From Nitrospirae bacterium JdFR-86 (GTDB lineage Bacteria > Nitrospirota > Thermodesulfovibrionia > Thermodesulfovibrionales > JdFR-86): a DNA stretch of 37,739 nt. The notes under the pieces were generated by a model. The model did not search any database, was not told where the DNA came from, and was given only the letters and a program-made list of their open reading frames with translations. Positions 22,353 through 37,739 of this stretch are shown here, piece by piece. The stretch is from the NCBI GenBank assembly GCA_002011815.1, contig MTOV01000014.1, positions 1 through 37,739 on the forward strand. The letters are read 5' to 3'. The first letter of the stretch is position 1; every line of letters begins with the position of its first letter. The translations under genes and the position numbers were made by a program.

Positions 22353-24968
22353 ATGAGCTTCTCTCAGATACTTAGACCCAGACCAGATGTTCTATCAGAT
22401 GAAGGTATAGACGGAATTATTGACCTTGCAAACCTTGACGACCCCAAGGGTAAAAAGCTTGAAGCAAACCCTAAACGGTTCTTTTCTTTAACTTATCCCA
22501 CCGCAGATGTCCGCCGGGTTATTCAGAAGCTGTCCGACAGATTCTCAGGGCGTAAAGATACACCGGGGTTATTCCTTTTTGAGGGTCTGAAAGGAAGTGG
22601 AAAATCTCACCTACTTCTTATGATTTATCACCTGTTCAGGAATTATAAGGTAGCCAGGGAATGGCTTGATGCCCATAAAATGTATTGTGAACTTCCAGAG
22701 GATACAGTAATTGTTGTAAATAAATTTACAGACCTACCTCTTTACTCTATCTGGGATTTCATCTTCGAGAAATTGACAAACCACCGCCCTGAGAAAAGCG
22801 TTGTCCAGCCAGGACTAAAAGATGTCGAAAAAGTTCTAGGAGACAAAAGACTGGTTCTCATACTGGATGAGCTGGAGCAGGGTATTCGTGTAATAAGTGA
22901 CCCGTCACTAAGACAACAGAATATAGCATTCCTTCAGATGCTTTCGGAATGGGCAAACCGTTCTGATAAAGTTACAGTATTTGCAAGTATTTATAGTAGT
23001 CAGGAAGAACCAGGAAGTACTCTTAAAAGGGTTCCAAGTTGCCGTGTTCAATTTGCATATTCAGCGGATAAGGCAAAGGTAGTGCTTCATAGACTTTTTG
23101 AAAACTACCTTGATTCCAGCTATGATGCTTATGCTTCGACCATTGATAGTTACCTGAATACATGGCGTCGCCACCAGCTTTCCTCGCCTGAAGAATACAG
23201 GTCAGAGATGCTTCTTACATATCCATTTTTACCGGAAGTCCTTGAGTTGATTCTTGAAAGAGTGCCTGCACGAGGAGGCTTCCAGAGTGTCCGCGGGGCA
23301 CTGGGATTTCTAGCAAATATGGTTAGATTAACCCATGACAAAGCCGATTTAATCACTGCAGCCCATGCTGACCTTTATGACAGGGAAGTAGTGGCAAGAC
23401 TTTCAGACCTTGACCCAAGCGGAGATTTGATTTCAAAGGCGCGTGGAAATCTCGATGAATTAAAAGGTCAGCCGCTGGTGTCCGAGATTGCCGCTACTGT
23501 GATGCTTTATACGCTTACAGGTTCCGGTCGTAGTTTGGGGGCTACTCGAGAAGAATTAATACGACACGTCCTGAACCCTAAAGTAGATATAAATGACTTT
23601 GAAAGGACACTTCTTGCCCTGCAGAAATATGCATCAAATTTCTGGGTACAGGAAGGCAGATACTACTTTGATCTTGAGGAAAATCCTGACTCAAAGGTCG
23701 AATTCCATTCTTTGCGTATTGACCGCAGTAAAGCACAGAGTCTTCTCCACAATCTCTGGCTGGATGAGATTTTCAGGGAACCCAATTGCGTTATCTACCA
23801 AGGTGAGGAAGAGACAAAGGGTGCACTGGACGAACTTGAAAAGAACCGTCTACGATATATCCTTTCCCCTCGTAAGTTGAGCCAGGAAGAACGCCATGCA
23901 CTTTTTCACGGCGTTCCTATGCGAAATCAGGTTATTCTGCTTGAACCAAAGGACCCGAATTTCAATCTCGATGCTCATAAAGACCTTCTAAAATGGGCTC
24001 AGAGACAGCTTGCCGCGCAGGAGCTTGCAACAAATACAAGAGATTCAAGCCGGAAGGCTGAATATGAAAGAATTTCACGGGAAGACAAACATCACTCTAT
24101 TGATACAATCAGGCGGGCAGGACTTGTTTTTATCCTGTGGGAACATTATGGGAACACAGCAAGCGAAGACCAAATAGAGGAAGAAGCCATCCCTGGTACT
24201 ACAAGAGAAGACGTGCTCAACTATCTTTCTCAACAACTTTTTCCCACCCAGCTGTTTGAAGAGCACCTCTTGTCCCGTTTAAGCGACATTCTTAATCTCA
24301 CTGTGAAAGACATAGATAGACAATATCGTTCAATACTTGGTTTCCCTGTCCCAACAACCATAAGGGCAGTCAGTCAGGCACTTAGAGAATTATGCCGAAA
24401 CAGGCAGCTCAGCATAAAACACCCGAGAGGAAATTTTTGTGGGGAAAACCCGAGTCTTACGGAGACAGAATTTTTCGAGGCTACCGTAGGAGAACCTTTT
24501 GAGACGCCTGCGGTTCACCCTCAAATGTCAATCCCCATCGGTGAGAAAGAAAAAACACCAACTCCTGAACATATGCAAGAGGGCATTACCACGGTTATAT
24601 CTCCACCTCCAGTTACTGCAAGAAGGCAGGAAATCAGCATTCTGCCCCAAGAAAGTAGTGGGGCGCTAAGGCAAGCCGTGGCTCTCAGACTTCAGGAATT
24701 CCCTGATGCAAGGGTAACGCGTATTCGAGCTACTATATTTTTAGAAAAGAATACGAGTGATCTCAGCACCCTACCTGCTACAATCAGAGGCAATCTCAGC
24801 GGGCAGGGGTTAGTTACCACAGAGACCACTATTACCAAAGAAGGTGAGTTCACTAAAGGAGAGGTGGAGACAATTATCGAGTCTCTTCCAGTTCTACCTG
24901 ATGCAAATTATGGGGCAAGGTTAGATCTTTTGATTCCGACCACTGAAGAGGAAAAGAAAAATGAGTAA
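22353..24968 (+). CDS. DUF499-like AAA ATPase of a PglZ-linked defence system
   Basis: An 871-aa P-loop ATPase. Near the N-terminus LRPRPDV and RFFSLTYPTADVRRVIQKL resemble the start of anti-phage-associated DUF499 proteins. Walker A is GLKGSGKS (78-85) and Walker B LVLILDE (167-173), followed by ASIYSSQEEPG as a sensor-like strand. The middle is helical with winged-helix-like segments; about 725-765 is a proline-rich linker and the last 100 residues a separate small domain. DUF499, BrxC and PglY ATPases are thought to play equivalent roles beside PglZ; this one is shorter than BrxC (about 1,200 aa). It overlaps the PglZ gene by 8 bases, so the two are coupled. First gene of the cluster. Confidence 0.8.
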   Translation: MSFSQILRPRPDVLSDEGIDGIIDLANLDDPKGKKLEANPKRFFSLTYPTADVRRVIQKLSDRFSGRKDTPGLFLFEGLKGSGKSHLLLMIYHLFRNYKVAREWLDAHKMYCELPEDTVIVVNKFTDLPLYSIWDFIFEKLTNHRPEKSVVQPGLKDVEKVLGDKRLVLILDELEQGIRVISDPSLRQQNIAFLQMLSEWANRSDKVTVFASIYSSQEEPGSTLKRVPSCRVQFAYSADKAKVVLHRLFENYLDSSYDAYASTIDSYLNTWRRHQLSSPEEYRSEMLLTYPFLPEVLELILERVPARGGFQSVRGALGFLANMVRLTHDKADLITAAHADLYDREVVARLSDLDPSGDLISKARGNLDELKGQPLVSEIAATVMLYTLTGSGRSLGATREELIRHVLNPKVDINDFERTLLALQKYASNFWVQEGRYYFDLEENPDSKVEFHSLRIDRSKAQSLLHNLWLDEIFREPNCVIYQGEEETKGALDELEKNRLRYILSPRKLSQEERHALFHGVPMRNQVILLEPKDPNFNLDAHKDLLKWAQRQLAAQELATNTRDSSRKAEYERISREDKHHSIDTIRRAGLVFILWEHYGNTASEDQIEEEAIPGTTREDVLNYLSQQLFPTQLFEEHLLSRLSDILNLTVKDIDRQYRSILGFPVPTTIRAVSQALRELCRNRQLSIKHPRGNFCGENPSLTETEFFEATVGEPFETPAVHPQMSIPIGEKEKTPTPEHMQEGITTVISPPPVTARRQEISILPQESSGALRQAVALRLQEFPDARVTRIRATIFLEKNTSDLSTLPATIRGNLSGQGLVTTETTITKEGEFTKGEVETIIESLPVLPDANYGARLDLLIPTTEEEKKNE

Positions 24969-25935
24969 TCTGCTGGTAGATAATTTTGAGAGCTTAATAG
25001 CACAAGGGCCAAGAGTCAAGTGGCTTGAAAAGTGGCTATTAGGAGAAGTTTGGACTGTTGAGCGATATCAAAGTCTTTCCTCACATGATTATCTAAAGAA
25101 TGGTGAATCAAAGGTCAACGAGCTTGAAGAGATAATAGCACAGGCAGCCTACAGGCTTTACGACGAATTTCTCGATGACCCTCCAGAGGAAAGGAATGTC
25201 CTGAGTTTTCTTGAAAGTGAGAAATTAAATGCTCTGGTTATCTTTGATGGGCTATCCTTAAGGGAGATTCCAGTACTTTTGAACCTTGCCCAAAAATCAA
25301 ATTACACGGTTCATGAGGTTGGAATAACTTACTCTGTGTTACCGACAGAAACCAACGATTTTATAGAACAGAGATTAAAGTTCGGAAATATTGCTCCATC
25401 TTTACTTCCGAAAAGAAGAGAAATAAAAGAGAAAGGAATCGCCGCATATTATTATTACGATACAAACCAACAGCATCTGCTTGACCGGGATTCAAAGAAG
25501 CTCCTTTTGTGGTCTGCATTTCCTGATAACACTTATAGTGACAGCACTGCCCGTTTCGACAGGCACTTTGAGCAGATCCATACGCTTCTTGAAGTTTCCT
25601 GGCTTAATACAGTCCAGCAGATTCCCCGAGGGCGGAAAATTTTAATAACCAGTGACCATGGATATGTATATTTCGGGGCAGGGCTTTCTTTTGCGAGGTC
25701 AAATTCTGAATTAAGACCGCTAACAGCATATCTTGGAGGTGAACGTTACAGGCGTCTGGAGGAAGGCGTTGTTCCGCCTGAACACCCTGATCTGGCAGTA
25801 TATCCTAATCGTAAGATTGCGGTTTTAAGGGGGCGTATTCAAACTCATCCTCCAGGTAAAGGAGCAAACAGGCTCTACAAACATGGAGGACTTTCAATAA
25901 TGGAAATCCTTGTGCCCTGGATTGTCCTGGAGTAG
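24961..25935 (+). CDS. pglZ: Minimal PglZ-domain protein
   Basis: A 324-aa protein of the alkaline-phosphatase-like PglZ family. Expected metal-site pieces are present: D96 in LVIFDGLSLREIP, a T/S-rich SVLPTET at 125-131, D232-H233 in LITSDHGYVYFG, and H308 in KHGGLSIMEILVPW, the closing signature of PglZ. BREX PglZ proteins usually exceed 650 residues; here almost only the catalytic core remains, with about 90 residues in front. PglZ is the defining component of Pgl/BREX-type phage defence, with reported phosphodiesterase or nuclease-like capability in some members. Start ATG overlaps the ATPase stop. Confidence 0.88.
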   Translation: MSNLLVDNFESLIAQGPRVKWLEKWLLGEVWTVERYQSLSSHDYLKNGESKVNELEEIIAQAAYRLYDEFLDDPPEERNVLSFLESEKLNALVIFDGLSLREIPVLLNLAQKSNYTVHEVGITYSVLPTETNDFIEQRLKFGNIAPSLLPKRREIKEKGIAAYYYYDTNQQHLLDRDSKKLLLWSAFPDNTYSDSTARFDRHFEQIHTLLEVSWLNTVQQIPRGRKILITSDHGYVYFGAGLSFARSNSELRPLTAYLGGERYRRLEEGVVPPEHPDLAVYPNRKIAVLRGRIQTHPPGKGANRLYKHGGLSIMEILVPWIVLE

Positions 25936-25943
25936 ATAAAGGT

Positions 25944-27602
25944 ATGAGTATTATTGACATTAAGCGGTTACTCAAGCAGTCTGAGGGACAATTTCTTGAA
26001 AGGAAGACGTGTTATGAATATAGAGATGGAAAGAGACGTCTCAGGAAAGCAAAGGATGTTGCCAGAAATGTTGCAGAAACACTGTCAGCTTTTGCAAATG
26101 CTGATGGTGGCACCCTTTTATTGGGTGTAGAAGATAATGGGGCTGTCTCAGGAGTTGATTTCCCTGAAGATAAACTCAAAGTTATACAAAATGCTCCCAA
26201 AAACCTGATAAAACCTTCCTTACGGGCTGAAATCAATAAAGTTGATTTCGAGGGAAAAAGGCTCTTCATTTTCACTGTCAACTGGATGCCTGATGTCTAT
26301 CAACTAACCGATGGGCGCTATTTGCTTCGTATAGGCGATTCAAATGTGCCTTTTCCTGCAAGTCAAATTGAACAACTTAAATTAGGGAAGAGAAAAGCTG
26401 CTTTTGAAAGTCGCATCGAGCCCACTGCTACATGGAATGATATTTCTAAATCACTTGTATTAGATTTTGGCAAAAGAGTTGGTATAAAAGGAGATGCTGA
26501 GACTATCTTGAGTCAGTATCGTTTGATAGAGTACAACAATGGAACCCCAAGGTTTAAACTGGCAGCACTGCTTCTTTTTGGCAAGGACCCTTTAAAGTGG
26601 CATCCACGATGCGGAATAGACTTCATAAAATATGAAGGGGTAGAGAGGGAAACAGGCAGGAAACTGAATATCGTTAAGAGGGAAAGAATAGAATTTCCTC
26701 TTGTGAAATTGATTGAAGAAGCCTATAAAACTATTTCCGTCCATATTAAAGAACGGCAATACCTTCACGACTTGTTTTTCATCGAAAAACTTGAATATCC
26801 TGCTTTTGCATGGCAGGAGGCAATTGTGAACGCTGTTGCCCACAGGGACTATAGCATTAATGGTCTATCTATAGAAGTATGGATGTTTGATGACCGGATG
26901 GAGGTTCGCAGTCCCGGTTTACCTCCCGAACCGGTCACACTGGAAAAGATTCTCAAGAGGGAAAAGATCCATGCCAGCAGAAATCCGCTTATTGTGCGAG
27001 TCTTGACTGATTTAGGCTACATGCGAGAGACTGGAGAAGGAATTCCCAGAATGTTTGACGAGATGGAAAAGAACGGGTTATATCCTCCAAAGCTTGAGAT
27101 TATTGCTGACTCGTTATTTTCTGTGACTTTAAACAATCAGCCAATGTATTCCGCAGAGGATATGAGATGGCTTGAGCAGTTTGCCGGGCTAAATCTTAAT
27201 CCTGACCAGAAACGGATGTTACTCTTTGCACGGTCTCACGGTGGGTCATTCACAAGCAAAAATTGGCGAAAAGTATGCGGAGTGGATATCTATACTGCAT
27301 CGAAGGATATCAAGGATATGATTAGAAAAGGGTGTCTTATTCATCCTCAGAAAGGTAGTAGAGTTTATCATATAAGTTATCCCTTTGAAAGAGAAGAGCG
27401 AAAGTTTCCTGAAGAGTATGGTGCTATTGAAGAGACCTTAAATAAGCAAGGTTATATAACAAATCAAGATATCCGAGAAATACTGAAAGTGCCGAGATTT
27501 CAAGCTGTCAGGATAGCAAAGCAGTTGATTGAGTTGGGGGTCTTAGAGCTTGTTGGCAAAGGGAGAGGGGCAAAATATATTAGAAAGCAGTTACAAAAAT
27601 GA
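25944..27602 (+). CDS. AlbA_2/Schlafen-domain ATP-binding regulator-like protein
   Basis: A 552-aa protein. Residues about 10-125 are an AlbA_2 (Schlafen-type) domain: EGQFLERKTCYE, AETLSAFANADGGTLLLGVED, then YLLRIGDSNVP. About 285-385 is the GHKL-like ATP-binding module shared with RecG-like regulators (EAIVNAVAHRDYS, GLPPEPV, ETGEGIPRMFDEM). A C-terminal winged helix spans about 490-550 (QGYITNQDIREILKVPRFQ). Such proteins are often called transcriptional regulators and are frequent in defence islands; Schlafen-type domains can also cleave RNA. It follows pglZ by 8 bases. Sensor, regulator and effector are all possible. Confidence 0.82.
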   Translation: MSIIDIKRLLKQSEGQFLERKTCYEYRDGKRRLRKAKDVARNVAETLSAFANADGGTLLLGVEDNGAVSGVDFPEDKLKVIQNAPKNLIKPSLRAEINKVDFEGKRLFIFTVNWMPDVYQLTDGRYLLRIGDSNVPFPASQIEQLKLGKRKAAFESRIEPTATWNDISKSLVLDFGKRVGIKGDAETILSQYRLIEYNNGTPRFKLAALLLFGKDPLKWHPRCGIDFIKYEGVERETGRKLNIVKRERIEFPLVKLIEEAYKTISVHIKERQYLHDLFFIEKLEYPAFAWQEAIVNAVAHRDYSINGLSIEVWMFDDRMEVRSPGLPPEPVTLEKILKREKIHASRNPLIVRVLTDLGYMRETGEGIPRMFDEMEKNGLYPPKLEIIADSLFSVTLNNQPMYSAEDMRWLEQFAGLNLNPDQKRMLLFARSHGGSFTSKNWRKVCGVDIYTASKDIKDMIRKGCLIHPQKGSRVYHISYPFEREERKFPEEYGAIEETLNKQGYITNQDIREILKVPRFQAVRIAKQLIELGVLELVGKGRGAKYIRKQLQK

Positions 27603-27646
27603 AGCAGTCTAAAATGTTACTTTTCGAATTTTAAACTGCTTCATTT
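27597..27646. terminator. Long imperfect hairpin between the AlbA_2 and methylase genes
   Basis: AAATGAAGCAGT (27,597-27,608) pairs with ACTGCTTCATTT (27,635-27,646), and after one C/A mismatch TAAAAT pairs with ATTTTA, leaving a 12-base loop. The left arm begins inside the AlbA_2 stop region. There is no clean T-run after it, so a classical terminator is not certain; partial terminator, RNA-processing site or a trace of a small mobile repeat are alternatives. Confidence 0.45.
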
Positions 27647-27670
27647 ATGATTTAGATTGTTACATTCAGT

Positions 27671-30600
27671 ATGGAAAAAGCGATTCAAGACTCAAAACTA
27701 AAATCCTGCGGCTCTACAAAGTATGCCATTGAAGACTCCTTCCCCATTGTGGAGATAAACCGCCTTGCGATTCCAGAAAGGAACGCCTTTAAACCTATAT
27801 ATCAGATGCATAAGTGGTTTGCTCGCAGGGCTTCCTGTGTGTTTAGGGCAATTCTTCTCGGGTGTATGAAGCCTCTTCCTCTGGATGAAAATGGAAAACC
27901 GTTGAAAAGCGGTGCCCAGATAATAATGGAAGAATTCTATAAAGATCACACGAATGACCCGGATACAAACGGAAAAGTCATCCTTGACCCTTTTATGGGT
28001 GGGGGCACAACAGTAGTCGAAGCCCTGCGTCTTGGATGTAAGGTCATAGGGATAGATCTCAATCCAGTTGCATGGTTTATAGTAAAGACCGAAGTCGAGC
28101 CCGTTGATATTGCTGAATTAAAGGCGTCATTTGAGCGTCTGGCTGAACGAAAAGTTGCATGGAGCGGGAAATCAGTAAAGGAGACCCTTCTTGAACAGTA
28201 TAAAACCGAATGTCCCTGTTGTGGTACAGGCAGGGAAGAAGCAGATATTATCTATACTTTCTGGGTTAAGTCTGCCATTTGCACTAATTGTAAAAAAGAG
28301 GTTCCGCTGTTTTCGGATTATATTATTGCGGCTAAGACTCCTTCAATAAAATATAGTCGGGATGTAGAATGCCCTGAATGCGGCAGGACATTTGATTGGG
28401 AGTTAGAACCAGCGAGTCTGATTGCTGAACCGGGACTTTGTATAGCAAGTCCCTCTTATTCTGCGGGGATTGGTCGCACAAGTGTGCGATGGGCGTTTTC
28501 TGCTGGTGATAAAGTGAAATGTCCATGGTGTGAGAAGATTATAAAAGCAAGAATTACGCATAAAAAGAAAGAACGGAAAAAGGTGCCGCTTACTGTTCTT
28601 CTTTGCCCTCATTGCTATTCTGTATGGCAATGGAGGGGAAATCTTCCTGAAAAGGTGAACTGCCCTGTTTGTAATAAGAGTTATGACCCTAAGAAAGGCA
28701 ACGTCCCTAAAAGTGGTTGGTTTCTGTGTTCCTGTGGGCATACAGACAGGATAATAAACTCTATACGGAGCCTGCCCAAAGACCAGCTTTTTCCAATGCG
28801 TCCTTATGCTATTGAAGGTTATTGTCCTCATTGTGCAGGTGATTTAGAGGGAGAAACAGATTTAACCCAGATGACAATTGAAGGCACTAACTTAAAGCTT
28901 AAGATTAAAAACTCAAAACTAAATAGCCACCTCTGTTTGCTTACAAAAAACAATGGAAAGTTTTTCAAAAGGATTACTTCTTCAGACCTTGCCAGATATC
29001 AGAGGGCATGTGAAATATGGGAAAAAGAAAAAGTAAATTTGCCATATCCAAAGCAGAAAATCCCTGAAGGATTTAATACTAATCAAATGAGAAATCACCA
29101 TTATCATTACTGGTATCAGATGTTTAATCCAAGGCAATTGCTTTGCCTTTCGATACTGCTGAAGGCGATAGACGAGGAACAGGACCAAGTGTTGAAGGAA
29201 ATGTTGCTGAGTGGGTTTTTCAACCTCTTGAATAATGTAAGTGACTTTTGTTCATATAGGACTACTGTCCTTGCATTGCGCCAAGTTTTTGCTCGTCATG
29301 ACTTTGCCCCCAAAAACACGCCTTGTGAAAATAATGTATGGGGATTGAAATTTGGCATGGGAAGCTTTGAATCATGCGTTCAAACCGTATATGATGGAAT
29401 TCGGTTTGCTATTAGCCCTTCTGATCGGCGTTTTACTGGTCAATTTAACAAAAAAAATCAACCCATCATTAGTGATATGAAATCTTCTGAAACAGTTTAT
29501 TCCGGTAGGCCCAATCTTATGTCAGAGGATTCAAAAAGATTGGCTGTGACTGTCAAAAATAACCCTATACACATCGTTGTTACCGACCCTCCATATGCAA
29601 GTAACGTTAATTATTCAGAACTATCTGACTATTTTTATGTATGGTTAAGCCTGGTGTTGAGTAAAACTTATCCATATTTTGCGCCTGATGCTACTCCAAA
29701 AAGGGAAGAAATAATTGAAAACCCGACTCGTGGGTATACCATAACAGATTTTGAAGAGGGGTTAAAGTCTGTATTTGTAGAATGCAAGAAAAAACTCGAT
29801 GATAGAGGACTGTTAGCTTTTACATTCCATCACGCTGAGGGGCGTACATGGGAATCGCTTCTAAAAGCTGTATGTGATGCAGGGTTTATTGTTGAAGCCG
29901 TCTATCCGATACATGGAGAACCTGAAGCTTCTCTACACCTTCAGGATAAAAAGGCAATTGCTTATGATCTCATCCATGTCTGCCGCAAGAGACCAATTGT
30001 GCAGAATGTTCAAAAACGTTCGTGGGCAGGTATTCGTCAGGAAATTCGGCGTAGGGCAAGGGAAGAGATTAAAGTCATTGAGGCAGGAAGATATGGTAAT
30101 GAGCCGCTTTCTCCAGCTGATATAAACATCATCCTTATCGGCAAATGCCTTGAACTTTACAGTCGTCACTACGGTGCTATCGTTGACCATGAAGGAAATG
30201 AAGTTCCATTAAAACAGGCACTTGAGGAAATCCGCATGATGGTAGACCAACTTCAGTCGAAAGAGCAGCCTTTACCTTCTGAGCTTTCTGACATTGACCC
30301 TGAATCCTATGTATATCTGACCTGCCTCTGTAACAGAAAGGAAATCAAAAGCGATGAGGTACATAAAGCTACAAGGGGAATCTTGGAGCCGGATTCTTTA
30401 TTCGAAGCAGGTCTTATGATAAAGGGCAGAGCTAAACGCGGCAGGACTTACGAGGTAAAACAACCTCTTGAGCGCTTTGATTCTCTGGTTGAGAAGTTCA
30501 AAGAGCCCCAAGTTGAAAAAACTTTATTCGGCGACATGGAAGTACCAACTAAAATGAAAAAGAAAATATATTTCATTGACTATGTCCATTTTCTTATGGC

Positions 30601-30766
30601 TCTTGTTGAAGGTGGAGAAAACATCGTGCCATGGCTTGAACGCTTCAGAAGAGAGACACCAAGGCTTAGAGCCGCATGCGAATATCTGATGGGAAAGAAC
30701 AACGGCTTTGCGCCTACGCTTAAAAAAATCCTTGATATGATAGATATGGGACCACTGTTTAGATAG
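27671..30766 (+). CDS. DUF1156 DNA methyltransferase with zinc ribbons
   Basis: A 1031-aa DNA amino-methyltransferase. The DUF1156 hallmark MHKWFARRAS is at 46-55; the SAM motif ILDPFMGGGTT at 104-114; catalytic DPPY at 639-642 inside VVTDPPYASNVNYSELSDYF. Between them are eight cysteine knuckles (about 181-184, 204-207, 234-237, 284-287, 312-315, 331-334, 353-355, 385-388), enough for four zinc ribbons. It probably methylates adenine N6 or cytosine N4 to mark self DNA. This family (Zn-ribbon adenine methylases) serves as PglX of BREX type 3, as I recall, and occurs with DUF499 ATPases. The ATG has no Shine-Dalgarno, suggesting a separate short-leader transcript. Confidence 0.88.
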   Translation: MEKAIQDSKLKSCGSTKYAIEDSFPIVEINRLAIPERNAFKPIYQMHKWFARRASCVFRAILLGCMKPLPLDENGKPLKSGAQIIMEEFYKDHTNDPDTNGKVILDPFMGGGTTVVEALRLGCKVIGIDLNPVAWFIVKTEVEPVDIAELKASFERLAERKVAWSGKSVKETLLEQYKTECPCCGTGREEADIIYTFWVKSAICTNCKKEVPLFSDYIIAAKTPSIKYSRDVECPECGRTFDWELEPASLIAEPGLCIASPSYSAGIGRTSVRWAFSAGDKVKCPWCEKIIKARITHKKKERKKVPLTVLLCPHCYSVWQWRGNLPEKVNCPVCNKSYDPKKGNVPKSGWFLCSCGHTDRIINSIRSLPKDQLFPMRPYAIEGYCPHCAGDLEGETDLTQMTIEGTNLKLKIKNSKLNSHLCLLTKNNGKFFKRITSSDLARYQRACEIWEKEKVNLPYPKQKIPEGFNTNQMRNHHYHYWYQMFNPRQLLCLSILLKAIDEEQDQVLKEMLLSGFFNLLNNVSDFCSYRTTVLALRQVFARHDFAPKNTPCENNVWGLKFGMGSFESCVQTVYDGIRFAISPSDRRFTGQFNKKNQPIISDMKSSETVYSGRPNLMSEDSKRLAVTVKNNPIHIVVTDPPYASNVNYSELSDYFYVWLSLVLSKTYPYFAPDATPKREEIIENPTRGYTITDFEEGLKSVFVECKKKLDDRGLLAFTFHHAEGRTWESLLKAVCDAGFIVEAVYPIHGEPEASLHLQDKKAIAYDLIHVCRKRPIVQNVQKRSWAGIRQEIRRRAREEIKVIEAGRYGNEPLSPADINIILIGKCLELYSRHYGAIVDHEGNEVPLKQALEEIRMMVDQLQSKEQPLPSELSDIDPESYVYLTCLCNRKEIKSDEVHKATRGILEPDSLFEAGLMIKGRAKRGRTYEVKQPLERFDSLVEKFKEPQVEKTLFGDMEVPTKMKKKIYFIDYVHFLMALVEGGENIVPWLERFRRETPRLRAACEYLMGKNNGFAPTLKKILDMIDMGPLFR

Positions 30767-30811
30767 TTGTGAATTAAAAAGGGAATGAAAATATTTTTAA
30801 AGAATTAAATC

Positions 30812-31627
30812 ATGGCACCAAACAAATATAAGCTGAAATCGTCTGCGCTTACTCAAGAAATAAATTACCTTTTTGGGAGTTTCGCATCTGAAAATTTACG
30901 AGAGTTTGCACAGTATTTAAATTTAATCGATGGTCAGCGACCACGAAGTTCGGAAATTCTTAAATGGTACAGCTGGGTAAAGCCTCGTTTAACAAATGAG
31001 AATCCTTACCAAGAAGGAATGGTGCTTATCCGACTCTTAATTTTCCAATTCATGGTAGAAGGATGCACAAAACAAATGTTCAAGTTGCTCCTCAGGACAT
31101 TAGTTCATCAATTTCCTGAATATAATAAAGATAAAATTCGCAAACTTCTTAACCCTAATAAAGGTAAAGTTACTGATCTAAGACCACTTGAGGAAAATAT
31201 TTTATCTATACTTGGTGCTTCTGATAAGTTTACTATTCTGTATAAGGGATTAGAAGAGCTTTGTTCTCCACATTTATATGAGTTGCGTAATGCAATAGCC
31301 CATCAGAGATTCTATATCGAGCCGCAAGGTAATGACCGTCTCATCTTCTACCAGCCCGAAAGACGACGACTGACAAAAACAAATGCAAAAGCAATAAAAG
31401 CATCGGAATTTTTCAAAAAAATGGATTCTCTGGAAATATTTTGGGCTTCTTTTTTTGAGGCATATAGTGTTCTATCTTTAAAACTTATCGAGTCAGGACA
31501 ACTTCTGGATCATCCTTGTGGCGAGTGTGGGAGTCTTATAATATATGCCAGGGGAGAAAAGCCGCCAACAAAATGCAATTTTTGCGGTTTCAGGGTTCAA
31601 TTAAAAACTCAACACCCGGAGGAATGA
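30812..31627 (+). CDS. HEPN-like Zn-ribbon protein of the defence cluster
   Basis: A 271-aa protein I do not recognise as a named family. It is mostly helical; ELRNAIAHQRF contains R159-N-A-I-A-H164, matching the R-x4-6-H catalytic motif of HEPN ribonucleases. The C-terminus has a zinc ribbon, C236-C239 and C255-C258 (CGEC...CNFC). HEPN proteins are common RNase toxins or effectors in defence islands, so an RNA-cutting abortive role is possible; non-catalytic RNxxxH helices also occur in ordinary proteins (for example DUF4145-like). It follows the methylase by 45 bases without a strong ribosome site and is one base before the next gene. Confidence 0.7.
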   Translation: MAPNKYKLKSSALTQEINYLFGSFASENLREFAQYLNLIDGQRPRSSEILKWYSWVKPRLTNENPYQEGMVLIRLLIFQFMVEGCTKQMFKLLLRTLVHQFPEYNKDKIRKLLNPNKGKVTDLRPLEENILSILGASDKFTILYKGLEELCSPHLYELRNAIAHQRFYIEPQGNDRLIFYQPERRRLTKTNAKAIKASEFFKKMDSLEIFWASFFEAYSVLSLKLIESGQLLDHPCGECGSLIIYARGEKPPTKCNFCGFRVQLKTQHPEE

Positions 31628-31628
31628 A

Positions 31629-32066
31629 TTGCCAGGATACCAGCTTGTAGAAATAGGAAATTTAAGTCCAAATAAGAATAACGGCATTTTACCTTACAAA
31701 AATAAGATAGGCTTTCTGGACTTTTTACGGGAAATTACTCAAGACCCGCTGCCGTTTCCGAAATTCTACAAGGTGCAAGTGGTTGGATTGGAAGAAGTGC
31801 TTTTTGCAGCTCGTCCAAAACAGGAGGAAATGGCACTTAAGATATATAGCCTGCTGAAATCTGCTGCGCAGAACCTTGAAAGAAAGCTTATAGATGTTCA
31901 GATTGTATTTCGGGGAAGACTTGTAAGAGGCGAAAGTTTCTGGGTTGAATATAGAAATGTAAAGCTCCCGATAGGACACATTTTCGGCTCACCTATGAAA
32001 CAGACCGATGCACAAGGAAATCATTTTTATAAGAAAAGCTTTAGTTTAACCAATGGGATAATTTAG
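31629..32066 (+). CDS. Unrecognised 145-aa protein in the defence cluster
   Basis: Translation starts at TTG 31,629: GGAGGAA ends four bases before it and the previous stop is one base upstream, so coupling is clear. The protein is mixed alpha/beta with LEEVLFAARPKQEEMALKIY, LIDVQIVFRGRLVRG and LPIGHIFGSPM. No catalytic motif, membrane segment or signal peptide is visible and I do not know the family. Its conserved place between the HEPN-like and helicase genes suggests a system-specific part, perhaps a specificity or bridging protein. Confidence 0.65.
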   Translation: MPGYQLVEIGNLSPNKNNGILPYKNKIGFLDFLREITQDPLPFPKFYKVQVVGLEEVLFAARPKQEEMALKIYSLLKSAAQNLERKLIDVQIVFRGRLVRGESFWVEYRNVKLPIGHIFGSPMKQTDAQGNHFYKKSFSLTNGII

Positions 32067-32094
32067 TTTTTAATTATGAGTTTTAGTTAGGTTT

Positions 32095-34938
32095 ATGGAT
32101 AAAAAGACTAAGAAAACGGTTAATACAGGAGAAAAAGTAAAAGCGTATGGACTCGAGCACCTTGGAACAGGTGAGGTTCTCAGGGTGCGTGAGTCAGGAG
32201 CTACCTATCAAGCCGATGTCGTATTTGACAGTGCAGACGGGCGGCGGTTGGAGACAATTCCCATAGATAGGCTTGAGCGTGTTCCCGACCTGATTGAACG
32301 ACTTTCTACAGGAGACGTGGACTCGCCACTTGATTTCTATCTTAAACAGCTTGCATATCAACTGCCGCTCAATAATGCTGGAGGTGAGCTCTCAAACTCA
32401 AGAACCGACCTTTTGCCACACCAGATTCTTCTGACACGGGACATTGTTGAATCCGAGCGGCGAAAGTTCCTTATAGCCGATGAGGTCGGGCTTGGAAAAA
32501 CCATAGAAACAGGACTTATCATAAGAGAGTTATTTGCTAGAAATGAGGCAAAGCGAGTTTTGATAATTTGTCCTGCAGGGCTGACCAGAAACTGGCAGCA
32601 GGAGCTCAAGGACTGCTTCAGGCTACACTTTGATATACTCGGAATTGACTTCAATGATACAAGCTCGCTCTCATGGGAAAACCATCATCGCGTAATCGCC
32701 TCAATAGATACCATCAAGCAGGCAAAAAGAATTGAAAAGCTAAGACAGGCACCCAAGTGGGACTTAATAGTGTTTGATGAGGCACATCATCTGAGCCGTA
32801 AAAAGTATGGTAAAAAAGTGGATTATACACAGAATTATCGTCTGGCTGAGGCGCTGAGAGGTTATACCAGAGATATGTTTTTCCTTTCTGCAACTCCTCA
32901 TCAGGGCGATGCATATCAGTTCTGGTCTTTGATTCAACTCCTCGATGACCAGCTGTTTGAATCTCCAGAAGTCATGGCAGACCATAGGGGACTTCTTAAC
33001 CGGGTAATGTTTCGGAGAACAAAGCGGGAGGTTACTGATGCAGAAGGTAATCCACTGTTTATGCGCCGTCAGGTGCATACACAAACATTTCCGTTAGCAG
33101 CACGGGAAAGGTGGTTCTATGATCGGCTTACTGAATATTTGAAGGAGGGCTATGGAGTTGCCGGTATAGGAGAGAAAAAGACCACAAGTAAACAGAGGGC
33201 TGTAGGCTTTGTTATGGCTACATTCCAGAAAATGATGTCGTCAAGCCCCCGTGCTATTCGTCAGGCATTAAGGAGAAGACTTTTGGTGTTACTTGCACGT
33301 GAACAGATGGCTCTGGAGAAAAAAATCCAGAAATCCCGTGCTGCTGGGCTGGCAGAGAAGATATTGAAAATCCAGGAAGAGATGAGAAATCTTGCTATTG
33401 AAATTGCTTCTATTCCACCCTCAGCAGAACAGATAGCATCAGCAGATTCTTATATTGCAAAAGTAAAGCAGCGGCTTGCCCGAAAAGGTTATCCAAGCGA
33501 AGAGGCAACACCCTGGGCGCTTGATGCTGAGGAGGAAGCTGAAAATATTATTTATGCTGAAGCTGTAATACCCGATGAAATTCAAAAAGTGCGCGAGTTG
33601 ATTAAACTTGCTCCGGAAGGAACAGATAGAAAATTTGACACTCTCGTAAGGGCAATTGAGCAGGTTAGAAGGCTTTCTCCACAGGAAAAAATTGTTATCT
33701 TTACGCAATATAGAGAGACATTGGAGTTCTTGAAAGAAGAGCTGAGTAAATTATATGGTGAAGAAAAGATTGCTACTCTTAAAGGTGGTCCTCTTGAAGA
33801 AAAGATTGCAGCTGTAGAGTCTTTTTGGGAACCAGACGGAGCGCAGTTCTTAGTCAGCACTTCAGCCGGAGGCGAAGGAATAAACCTCCAAGTATGCCAT
33901 ATCCTTTTTAACTATGATCTTCCATGGAACCCAATGGCAGTCGAGCAGCGGATAGGCCGTATTCATAGATACGGGCAAACTGATACCGTACAGGTTTATA
34001 ACCTTGTTGCCGAAGATACGGTAGAGGAACGAATTTATAACCTGCTTGAAGAAAAGTTGCTTGAGATTGCCCGGGCAATAGGGAAAGTTGATCAGGTAAC
34101 AGGGCAGGTTGTAGAGGACTTCAGGTCAGAAATCCTCGGCTTCTTAGGCAGTTCCCCTAACTATCAAGACCTCTACAAAAAAGCCCTTATGGACAAAGAT
34201 TATCAAAGGACCGAGGAGGAGATAGTCGAGGCAATCAGAAAAGCTCAGCAAGCCAGCGAAGCCCTCCGTTATCTTGCACAGGACCTCGAATCTTTCAATT
34301 TTGGCCGATACAGAAATATGAAGGGACCGTTTACCCTTGATGACCTTAAACTCTTTGTAGAAAGAGGTATCTTGAGGTTGGGAGGAGCATTTATACCCCA
34401 AGGAGATGTTTTCTATATAGAGACCCCTGAAGTCTTGCATCGGTATCCAAACATTTCACCCCGATACGAAAACGTAGTATTTGACCGAAAGCTCGCCATG
34501 AGGAAACGAAAAGCTGAATTGTTTGGTATCGGGCATCCTTTAGTCGATGCCCTTATTGAACATTTCAAAGGACCTCTTTTCTCTGGTGAGGTGAGTATTA
34601 GTGAAACAACCTCTAATGCTTATCCAATCTCAGTTAGATACGTGTTTATGGTAAACTTCGAGGAAGGTGTGAAGAAGGTCTTTTATAAAGGATTCAATTT
34701 GAATGAGAATGGGAATTTGGAAAGGTTTCAACCCAGAAGCGACATAGAGGCACTACGTAATCTAAGAAACAGACTAAAGCCAGTTTCTAAAAAGGGAGTT
34801 TCAGTTCCAGAGTGGCTAAAGGAGAGAATTAACTCTATTATTATCGAGGAGGAAGCCCGATTAAGAGCCAAGTTTGATAATGTGTTATCAATACAAAGCA
34901 AAATAGTTGGAATTAGTTTCAGGGAAACCTCAGGGTAG
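32095..34938 (+). CDS. SNF2-family helicase (BrxHII/DrmD-like)
   Basis: A 947-aa superfamily 2 DNA translocase. Motif I ADEVGLGKT at 128-136, DEAH at 228-231, motif III SATPHQGD at about 265-272, motif V STSAGGEGINLQ and motif VI QRIGRIHRYGQ at about 620-630 are complete. The N-terminal 60 residues look like a small beta barrel (GTGEVLRVRESGATYQADVVF). The roughly 250 residues after the motor are a family-specific C-terminal region. It resembles the RapA/HepA-like helicases of BREX type 3 (BrxHII) and DISARM (DrmD). Translocation along DNA could expose or sense unmodified phage DNA. Only a weak AGG precedes the ATG. Last gene of the cluster. Confidence 0.88.
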   Translation: MDKKTKKTVNTGEKVKAYGLEHLGTGEVLRVRESGATYQADVVFDSADGRRLETIPIDRLERVPDLIERLSTGDVDSPLDFYLKQLAYQLPLNNAGGELSNSRTDLLPHQILLTRDIVESERRKFLIADEVGLGKTIETGLIIRELFARNEAKRVLIICPAGLTRNWQQELKDCFRLHFDILGIDFNDTSSLSWENHHRVIASIDTIKQAKRIEKLRQAPKWDLIVFDEAHHLSRKKYGKKVDYTQNYRLAEALRGYTRDMFFLSATPHQGDAYQFWSLIQLLDDQLFESPEVMADHRGLLNRVMFRRTKREVTDAEGNPLFMRRQVHTQTFPLAARERWFYDRLTEYLKEGYGVAGIGEKKTTSKQRAVGFVMATFQKMMSSSPRAIRQALRRRLLVLLAREQMALEKKIQKSRAAGLAEKILKIQEEMRNLAIEIASIPPSAEQIASADSYIAKVKQRLARKGYPSEEATPWALDAEEEAENIIYAEAVIPDEIQKVRELIKLAPEGTDRKFDTLVRAIEQVRRLSPQEKIVIFTQYRETLEFLKEELSKLYGEEKIATLKGGPLEEKIAAVESFWEPDGAQFLVSTSAGGEGINLQVCHILFNYDLPWNPMAVEQRIGRIHRYGQTDTVQVYNLVAEDTVEERIYNLLEEKLLEIARAIGKVDQVTGQVVEDFRSEILGFLGSSPNYQDLYKKALMDKDYQRTEEEIVEAIRKAQQASEALRYLAQDLESFNFGRYRNMKGPFTLDDLKLFVERGILRLGGAFIPQGDVFYIETPEVLHRYPNISPRYENVVFDRKLAMRKRKAELFGIGHPLVDALIEHFKGPLFSGEVSISETTSNAYPISVRYVFMVNFEEGVKKVFYKGFNLNENGNLERFQPRSDIEALRNLRNRLKPVSKKGVSVPEWLKERINSIIIEEEARLRAKFDNVLSIQSKIVGISFRETSG

Positions 34939-35767: not shown

Positions 35768-37739
35768 ATCACAATCCCTTTTTATATAGGTCTTCTTTAT
35801 TTCATAGAATAGCAGACAAAATCCTCAACCTTGAACTGTCCCAATCCCATTTTATAGAGGTCTCCTTTATTTCGGCTAATGGCACAAATTGTTATACCGC
35901 AGAAAGGGTCCCAATCCCTTTTTGTAAAGGTCTTCCTTATTTCCTTCGTGCGGCTCGATGGCTTTGCGCCCAGAAAAGTCACAATCCCTTTTTATAGAGG
36001 TCTCCTTTATTTCCCTGTATCTCTACAAAGAGGAAAAAGGATACTCTAGTCACAATCCCTTTTTATAGAGGTCTTTTTTATTTCACTAAAGGAGTATTTC
36101 TATGCCCGTCGTAACTGTCGCAATCCCTTTTTGTTTAGGTCTTCTTTAGTTCATGCTCACTATAGGTTACATCAAGAGGAAAAAACAAAGGCGTCGTAAT
36201 CCCTTTTTGTTTAGGTCTTCTTTAGTTCAGTGTGTATGAGTTTTTAAGAGAGAGAAAGAGAGAGGGTCGTAATCCCTTTTTGTTTAGGTCTTCTTTAGTT
36301 CAAGGTAAGCAGAAGACAATCTCAAAGAAAGCCATACTGTCGTAATCCCTTTTTGTTTAGGTCTTCTTTAGTTCTCAAACACAGGCACACACCCAGCCTT
36401 GTCGCAAAGTCGTAATCCCTTTTTGTTTAGGTCTTCTTTAGTTCGAGACTGCGAGGTTTTAAGCCTCGAGTCTCTTAGCGGTCGTAATCCCTTTTTGTTT
36501 AGGTCTTCTTTAGTTCTGCGAAGCGTTTGCAAAAGCTTGGTGTCACGGTTGGTCGTAATCCCTTTTTGTTTAGGTCTTCTTTAGTTCCTCTTGCCGTAGT
36601 TACCATAACGGTAATAAGCGCAGTCGTAATCCCTTTTTGTTTAGGTCTTCTTTAGTTCTAGCACGGGGTGGCTGGAAGTCCTACAGTGGTAGGGCGAGGT
36701 CGTAATCCCTTTTTGTTTAGGTCTTCTTTAGTTCCAGAGGCTATTTTAAAGAAAGAGGCCGACTTCCTTGTCGTAATCCCTTTTTGTTTAGGTCTTCTTT
36801 AGTTCATCAAAGAGTTATACAAGAAGATACCGACTTTTAGTCGTAATCCCTTTTTGTTTAGGTCTTCTTTAGTTCAGCTCTTGGTCCGGACGGTTCTGTG
36901 ATTTCAGCCGCAGTCGTAATCCCTTTTTGTTTAGGTCTTCTTTAGTTCAGAACACAAAAGCTCAAAGACAAGATAAAAGCAGGTCGTAATCCCTTTTTGT
37001 TTAGGTCTTCTTTAGTTCAGATGACCGCCCTTAAAAAGCTCATAGAGACTGTAAGGTCGTAATCCCTTTTTGTTTAGGTCTTCTTTAGTTCAGGAATTGC
37101 CCTGCAAAATAGGAGAAGTCATAGGGGCGGTCGTAATCCCTTTTTGTTTAGGTCTTCTTTAGTTCCGCTTGGGGAGTGTGGAAGATAAAAGTTGACTCCA
37201 TGTCGTAATCCCTTTTTGTTTAGGTCTTCTTTAGTTCAAAAAACAGACAAAAAATAAGAAAAATTTTGAAGAGTCGTAATCCCTTTTTGTTTAGGTCTTC
37301 TTTAGTTCATTAAAGTGAGTGAGAAAGAGGTTGAAGAAGAGTATAAGAGGTCGTAATCCCTTTTTGTTTAGGTCTTCTTTAGTTCAAAAATTTGAAAATG
37401 AAAGGAGGAACAAAATGGATAGGTCGTAATCCCTTTTTGTTTAGGTCTTCTTTAGTTCTTAATGCCGGCAGAAATAAGCCCCGGTATAGGTGTGTCGTAA
37501 TCCCTTTTTGTTTAGGTCTTCTTTAGTTCAAGCCGGGGATAAAACGGTTTGGTAACGTAACGGTGTCGTAATCCCTTTTTGTTTAGGTCTTCTTTAGTTC
37601 CTCCATGCAAAGAGGAGGTTACGTACATAAAGTGTTGGGTCGTAATCCCTTTTTGTTTAGGTCTTCTTTAGTTCTGGACACCTTGCGATGAGTGCGGTTT
37701 GACCGCTTGTGAGTCGTAATCCCTTTTTGTTTAGGTCTT
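35768..37739 (-). CRISPR. CRISPR array, 28 repeats seen, continues past the window
   Basis: 27 complete 36-bp repeats plus a final one cut at the window end, with 27 spacers of 32-41 bases. On the plus strand the main repeat reads GTCGTAATCCC-TTTTTGTTTAGG-TCTTCTTTAGTTC. Starts: 35768, 35838, 35908, 35978, 36049, 36117, 36193, 36266, 36339, 36409, 36481, 36552, 36623, 36699, 36770, 36840, 36913, 36983, 37056, 37130, 37202, 37273, 37350, 37423, 37494, 37565, 37639, 37713. Repeats 7 onward are identical; repeat 6 differs at one base; repeats 1-5 are variable and end in TATTTC. Erosion marks the left as the old end, and the reverse-strand repeat ends GGGATTACGAC, like known 5' handles, so crRNAs are probably read right to left. 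No cas genes or leader are in the window. Confidence 0.98.

Follow-up and report, generated by a model that had tools for sequence, protein, structure and literature searches.

Spacers biased to one coding sense in a Nitrospirota CRISPR array, probably the older half of a type III-A array with crRNAs antisense to mRNA

A CRISPR array at the end of a contig in the MAG of JdFR-86 (Nitrospirae bacterium) raises the question of why its spacers seem to read in the coding sense of one strand. The window, i.e., the whole stretch of DNA analyzed here, is the complete contig C15 (37,739 nt) of a genome of 2,103,466 nt in 25 contigs. A sequence-only reading had proposed minus-strand crRNAs that pair with target mRNA, as expected from type III RNA targeting or from RNA-derived acquisition by a reverse transcriptase (RT) linked to Cas1. 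The array, its coordinates and the peptides quoted in that reading were all found again in the window. It is likely that the array is the older half of a type III-A array, whose minus-strand crRNAs are mostly antisense to mRNA and have been kept by selection, apparently in an RT-free system.

The array and its probable leader half

The array repeat, with the plus-strand consensus GTCGTAATCCCTTTTTGTTTAGGTCTTCTTTAGTTC and the minus-strand reading GAACTAAAGAAGACCTAAACAAAAAGGGATTACGAC, is unique to C15 within the 25 contigs of the JdFR-86 genome and alternates with spacers of 32–41 nt (Table 1). Its five leftmost copies are degenerate, which fits an old, leader-distal array end, and the 28th copy is partial, being interrupted where the contig ends.

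Table 1. Coordinates of the array, its parts and other genes discussed in the text (positions in the window unless a contig or locus is named).
Feature	Coordinates	Strand	Description
CRISPR array	35768..37739	minus	27 complete 36-nt repeats and 27 spacers; runs off the contig end
Five degenerate repeats	35768..36084	minus	old leader-distal (trailer) end
Spacer	36085..36116	plus	ribosome-binding site and ATG (AAGGAGTATTTCTATG), pointing to a target gene start in plus sense
Spacer	36588..36622	plus	exception according to the sequence-only reading; plus preferred by the codon model
Spacer	37386..37422	plus	ribosome-binding site and ATG (AAGGAGGAACAAAATG), pointing to a target gene start in plus sense
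Repeat cut by contig end	37713..37739	minus	reverse complement shares 21 nt with the end of MTND01000030.1
Defense-like gene cluster	22353-34938		left of the array
Lone cas6	G000:C3:181343-182311 (L164:9344-10312)		extreme end of C3; reads towards the contig end, beside an IS element
Second cas1 genes	L186:874-1686; L058:13342-14166; L060:13200-14018; L178:1957-2802		

In the JdFR-86 genome, Cas1, RAMPs, type I Cas7 (PF05107) and reverse transcriptase (PF00078) were all without match, and the purely type I neighborhood that had been named as counter-evidence was not found. A scan of genome contigs detected the identical 36-nt repeat in MTND01000030.1 (L184-L186, G177:C20), which is binned as Archaeoglobi JdFR-42. 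This contig carries the effector genes cas6, a CARF gene, cas10, csm2, csm3, csm4, csm5 and a CARF-PDDEXK gene, an adaptation part (first cas2, cas1, cas1', second cas2, then the leader), and an array of 21 repeats and 20 spacers that stops inside a repeat at the contig end. For RNA-activated cleavage and cyclic oligoadenylate signaling, the CARF effector genes are the only sign seen. The Cas10 and Csm2–Csm5 operon lies beside the identical repeat, yet in another bin, while the bin of the window is without RAMP; the proposed type III assignment gains support from this adjoining III-A operon.

When the window is reversed, its end and that of MTND01000030.1 share 21 nt, which lie entirely in the repeat. 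From the identical repeat and the end overlap, we infer that MTND01000030.1 is probably the other, leader half of the window array. Spacers are as long in MTND01000030.1 as in the window (35.75 and 36.0, p=0.83), and those of related arrays have a different length (p about 0.001). Tetranucleotides of the cas part correlate at 0.885-0.913 with the JdFR-86 genome versus 0.595-0.698 with its bin-mates; for the first 30 kb the affinity is less definite. The link rests on these four features, namely repeat, overlap, spacer length and tetranucleotides, rather than on reads. Both bins come from one study (PMC5369317); mis-binning of the leader half would be the simplest reading, and the public archaeal MAG JdFR-42 probably contains a bacterial type III-A locus.

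Related repeats are present in other Nitrospirota, the majority of them within the same order. Two relatives, G037 (III-A) and G039 (III-B), have their related-repeat arrays flanked on the GAAC side by cas1, a second and diverged cas1, and cas2; the leader and cas1-cas1'-cas2 take this position on MTND01000030.1 too. This order, shared by the relatives and the identical-repeat contig, indicates that the minus strand of the window gives the crRNAs, in agreement with the earlier proposal. The crRNAs would thus be minus-strand transcripts, predicted to be antisense to target mRNA.

The second Cas1 proteins (Table 1) are diverged, with 41-55% identity among relatives; by eye, the catalytic His and one Asp are kept in them, the last acidic residue not. 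The second Cas2 is encoded upstream of cas1 on MTND01000030.1 and in UBA665. One cas6 is found at the end of contig C3 of the JdFR-86 genome and another, together with the leader, on MTND01000030.1. The C3 gene was considered as the start of the array locus, a candidacy weakened by the different cas6 that MTND01000030.1 has of its own; it may come from another type III locus missing from the assembly.

Left of the array, the defense-like cluster encodes a DUF499-type ATPase, a PglZ-like protein, an AlbA/HATPase protein, a DUF1156-type DNA methylase, a SNF2 helicase and the products of two unknown genes. It matched the BREX, DISARM and Hma models only distantly, far under the curated cut-offs where these exist.

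Strand bias in the window and in other arrays

Searches of phage, plasmid, IMG/VR and order-level genome sequences found no protospacer for any of the 27 window spacers. By blastn, the array (against phages and plasmids) and the relatives' spacers (against phages) gave chance-level matches or none; comparison with 177 genomes of the order gave, apart from the own array, only short and mostly A-rich matches, and pattern scans of IMG/VR gave no window-spacer protospacer. A G037 spacer motif, SEIMAGN, had a match pair in IMG/VR within an ORF of 77 aa that lies upstream of a lysin-like gene; it was not counted because identity outside the pattern was scant, although the match is in frame. Since protospacers of the window spacers were not detected, the target strand was derived from composition and codon statistics.

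The open frames from which plus sense had been argued proved to be an invalid cue, with 49/81 frames open on the plus strand and 53/81 on the minus strand, and at least one on both strands in 27/27 spacers. Compared with shuffles, open frames per spacer were more than expected on plus (1.81 vs 1.44) and showed no excess on minus (1.96 vs 1.91). The high purine contents noticed before were confirmed (36,949, 76%; 37,238, 80%; 37,309, 80%; 37,386, 81%), and spacer 36,229 is likewise purine-rich (76%). Plus-strand purine exceeds 50% in 20 spacers and is below 50% in four (sign test, p=0.0015).

For coding sense itself, the best plus frame minus the best minus frame under a codon model was set against the values from each spacer's own dinucleotide shuffles, which takes out the effect of composition. 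The score was positive for plus in 24/27, 22/27 and 20/27 spacers with three training sets, and the maximum-likelihood sense fraction was 1.0 with all three (lower 95% bounds 0.81, 0.77 and 0.74). Held-out 35-mers of real coding sequence reach z>0 in about 69% of cases, so the window array resembles sense coding DNA. Two window spacers (36,085 and 37,386) bear a ribosome-binding site with ATG on the plus strand; no window spacer bears one on the minus strand. Spacer 36,588, singled out earlier as reading better on the minus strand, is not borne out as an exception, the codon model favoring plus (z 0.6-0.75). Thus the bias to plus coding sense exceeds chance by purine content and codon model alike, the open-frame cue being uninformative.

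The same bias was found in related arrays. The window and seven related arrays hold 186 distinct spacers with a purine ratio of 133:38 (p=1.5e-13). With MTND01000030.1 and further arrays added, the repeat family comprises 285 spacers, most of them from other Nitrospirota; their purine ratio is 206:63 (p=7e-19), and their sense fraction after control for composition is 0.77 (0.64-0.90). In the 20 spacers of MTND01000030.1 the purine bias is weaker (14:5, p=0.064; difference from the window spacers, p=0.027), and taken by themselves they give no coding signal (sense fraction 0.31, 0-0.98). Several non-identical spacer pairs vary only at third codon positions of the plus frame (LSEIMAGNL, LPEYWEAV, PAGGETFK); because in some cases the changes are just as silent in the mirrored minus frame, such differences fix the phase more than the strand. 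Several spacers of G037 (L059) and G039 (L061) form strong hairpins, some of them terminator-shaped, and these tile the same target in a single orientation.

Arrays adjacent to type I Cas7 genes in the same order (28 arrays, 756 spacers oriented by repeat) served as negative control. They showed no bias (purine 367:334, sense fraction 0.43, 0.35-0.52), whereas 110 spacers of type III arrays with unrelated repeats were clearly biased (purine 76:27, sense fraction 0.89, 0.65-1.0). In this dataset the bias is a property of type III arrays, and with these controls the purine and codon statistics support the suggestion that the spacers are complementary to mRNA.

Selection of useful spacers or biased uptake

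Type III complexes need pairing of the crRNA with a transcript to become active. Under this requirement a strand bias follows from selection of useful spacers, in line with published work (PMC8482600, PMC9048733). Transcription of the window array as minus-strand crRNAs would render most of them complementary to virus or plasmid mRNA. Csm/Cas10 would act only on crRNA-transcript pairing, only antisense spacers would protect, and these would be retained by selection, apparently with no part played by a reverse transcriptase. We infer that selection for transcript-targeting spacers, not biased uptake, is the likeliest cause of the bias; in RT-free type III systems of Thermus, strand bias has been explained by selection as well (PMC9048733).

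It is less probable, and on balance unlikely, that strand-selective, RT-free uptake made the bias, with an adaptation complex of two Cas1 and two Cas2 yielding antisense crRNAs before selection, possibly from DNA that transcription displaces in single-stranded or structured form. Consistent with it, leader-proximal halves of the relatives' arrays are as biased as the old ones (0.583 vs 0.557, p=0.28); leader-proximal spacers being not less biased, a positive sign of selection over time is missing. Moreover, overlapping spacer pairs in related arrays share one orientation in 22 cases and are opposite in four, which are palindromic or 12 nt long; this speaks equally for the preferred antisense reading. 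RT-free type III systems also prefer ssDNA hairpins according to the literature (PMC9048733), and type III arrays contain a somewhat larger share of hairpin-forming spacers than type I arrays. Nevertheless, this excess is weak (16% vs 10%, p=0.04) and missing among the window spacers, the published coding-strand enrichment in RT-free systems reportedly brings no direct defense benefit (PMC9048733), and type III arrays with unrelated repeats have the same bias. That the RT-free module itself, with two different Cas1 (the second diverged) and two Cas2, orients spacers antisense at uptake seems quite improbable, and the share of this double-Cas1 module in the bias becomes a testable question.

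Mere preference for purine-rich DNA at uptake, unrelated to coding sense, could account for purine skew being the strongest single signal and for the very purine-rich spacers 37,238 and 37,386, which lack coding signal beyond composition (z -0.2 each). Such a preference is very improbable as the whole cause, for the codon-model excess survives dinucleotide shuffles, and of 160 spacers of the relatives, 10 have a ribosome-binding site with ATG on the non-crRNA strand and one has it on the crRNA strand.

Copying of spacers from RNA by an RT linked to Cas1, as in Marinomonas, is compatible with the strand bias and the type III setting but is largely refuted and deserves hardly any credence: PF00078 was not found in the JdFR-86 genome or in the JdFR-42 bin with the matching operon, which leaves this part of the earlier proposal unsupported, Cas1 is a plain, unfused protein of about 312-320 aa, RT matches in the relatives' genomes sit on contigs other than the array contigs, and RT-active systems reportedly acquire most genes in both orientations (PMC9048733).

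Comparison with known systems

Selection of transcript-targeting spacers thus remains the preferred reading, and the coding-strand bias of type III spacers is an already known phenomenon. Type III spacers favor the coding strand by 65% on average and by 88% in Moraxella III-B (PMC8482600). As in the data of Vink et al. (2021; PMC8482600), type III crRNAs are complementary to mRNA here and type I-C-like arrays lack bias; the bias is stronger here, with a sense fraction of about 0.8-1.0 against the reported mean of 65%, and was derived from the spacer sequences themselves instead of mapped protospacers. Spacer strand bias can be measured by setting composition and codon statistics against those of type I control arrays. 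Such a protospacer-free test is a useful method and may give the polarity and likely RNA targeting of orphan or truncated arrays.

Thermus thermophilus, in the account of Artamonova (2020) given in PMC9048733, is similar in having antisense crRNAs and no reverse transcriptase. The present case differs from that account in being a natural array instead of an infection experiment, and in an adaptation module with a diverged second Cas1, to which the matching contig adds two Cas2. The RT-Cas1 type III-B system of Marinomonas mediterranea is alike in being type III and RNA-targeting, the latter predicted here from sequence, whereas no RT was found in JdFR-86 and Cas1 is not fused. Compared with these systems, the window array stands as a strong example of the known bias, apparently RT-free and with a double Cas1.
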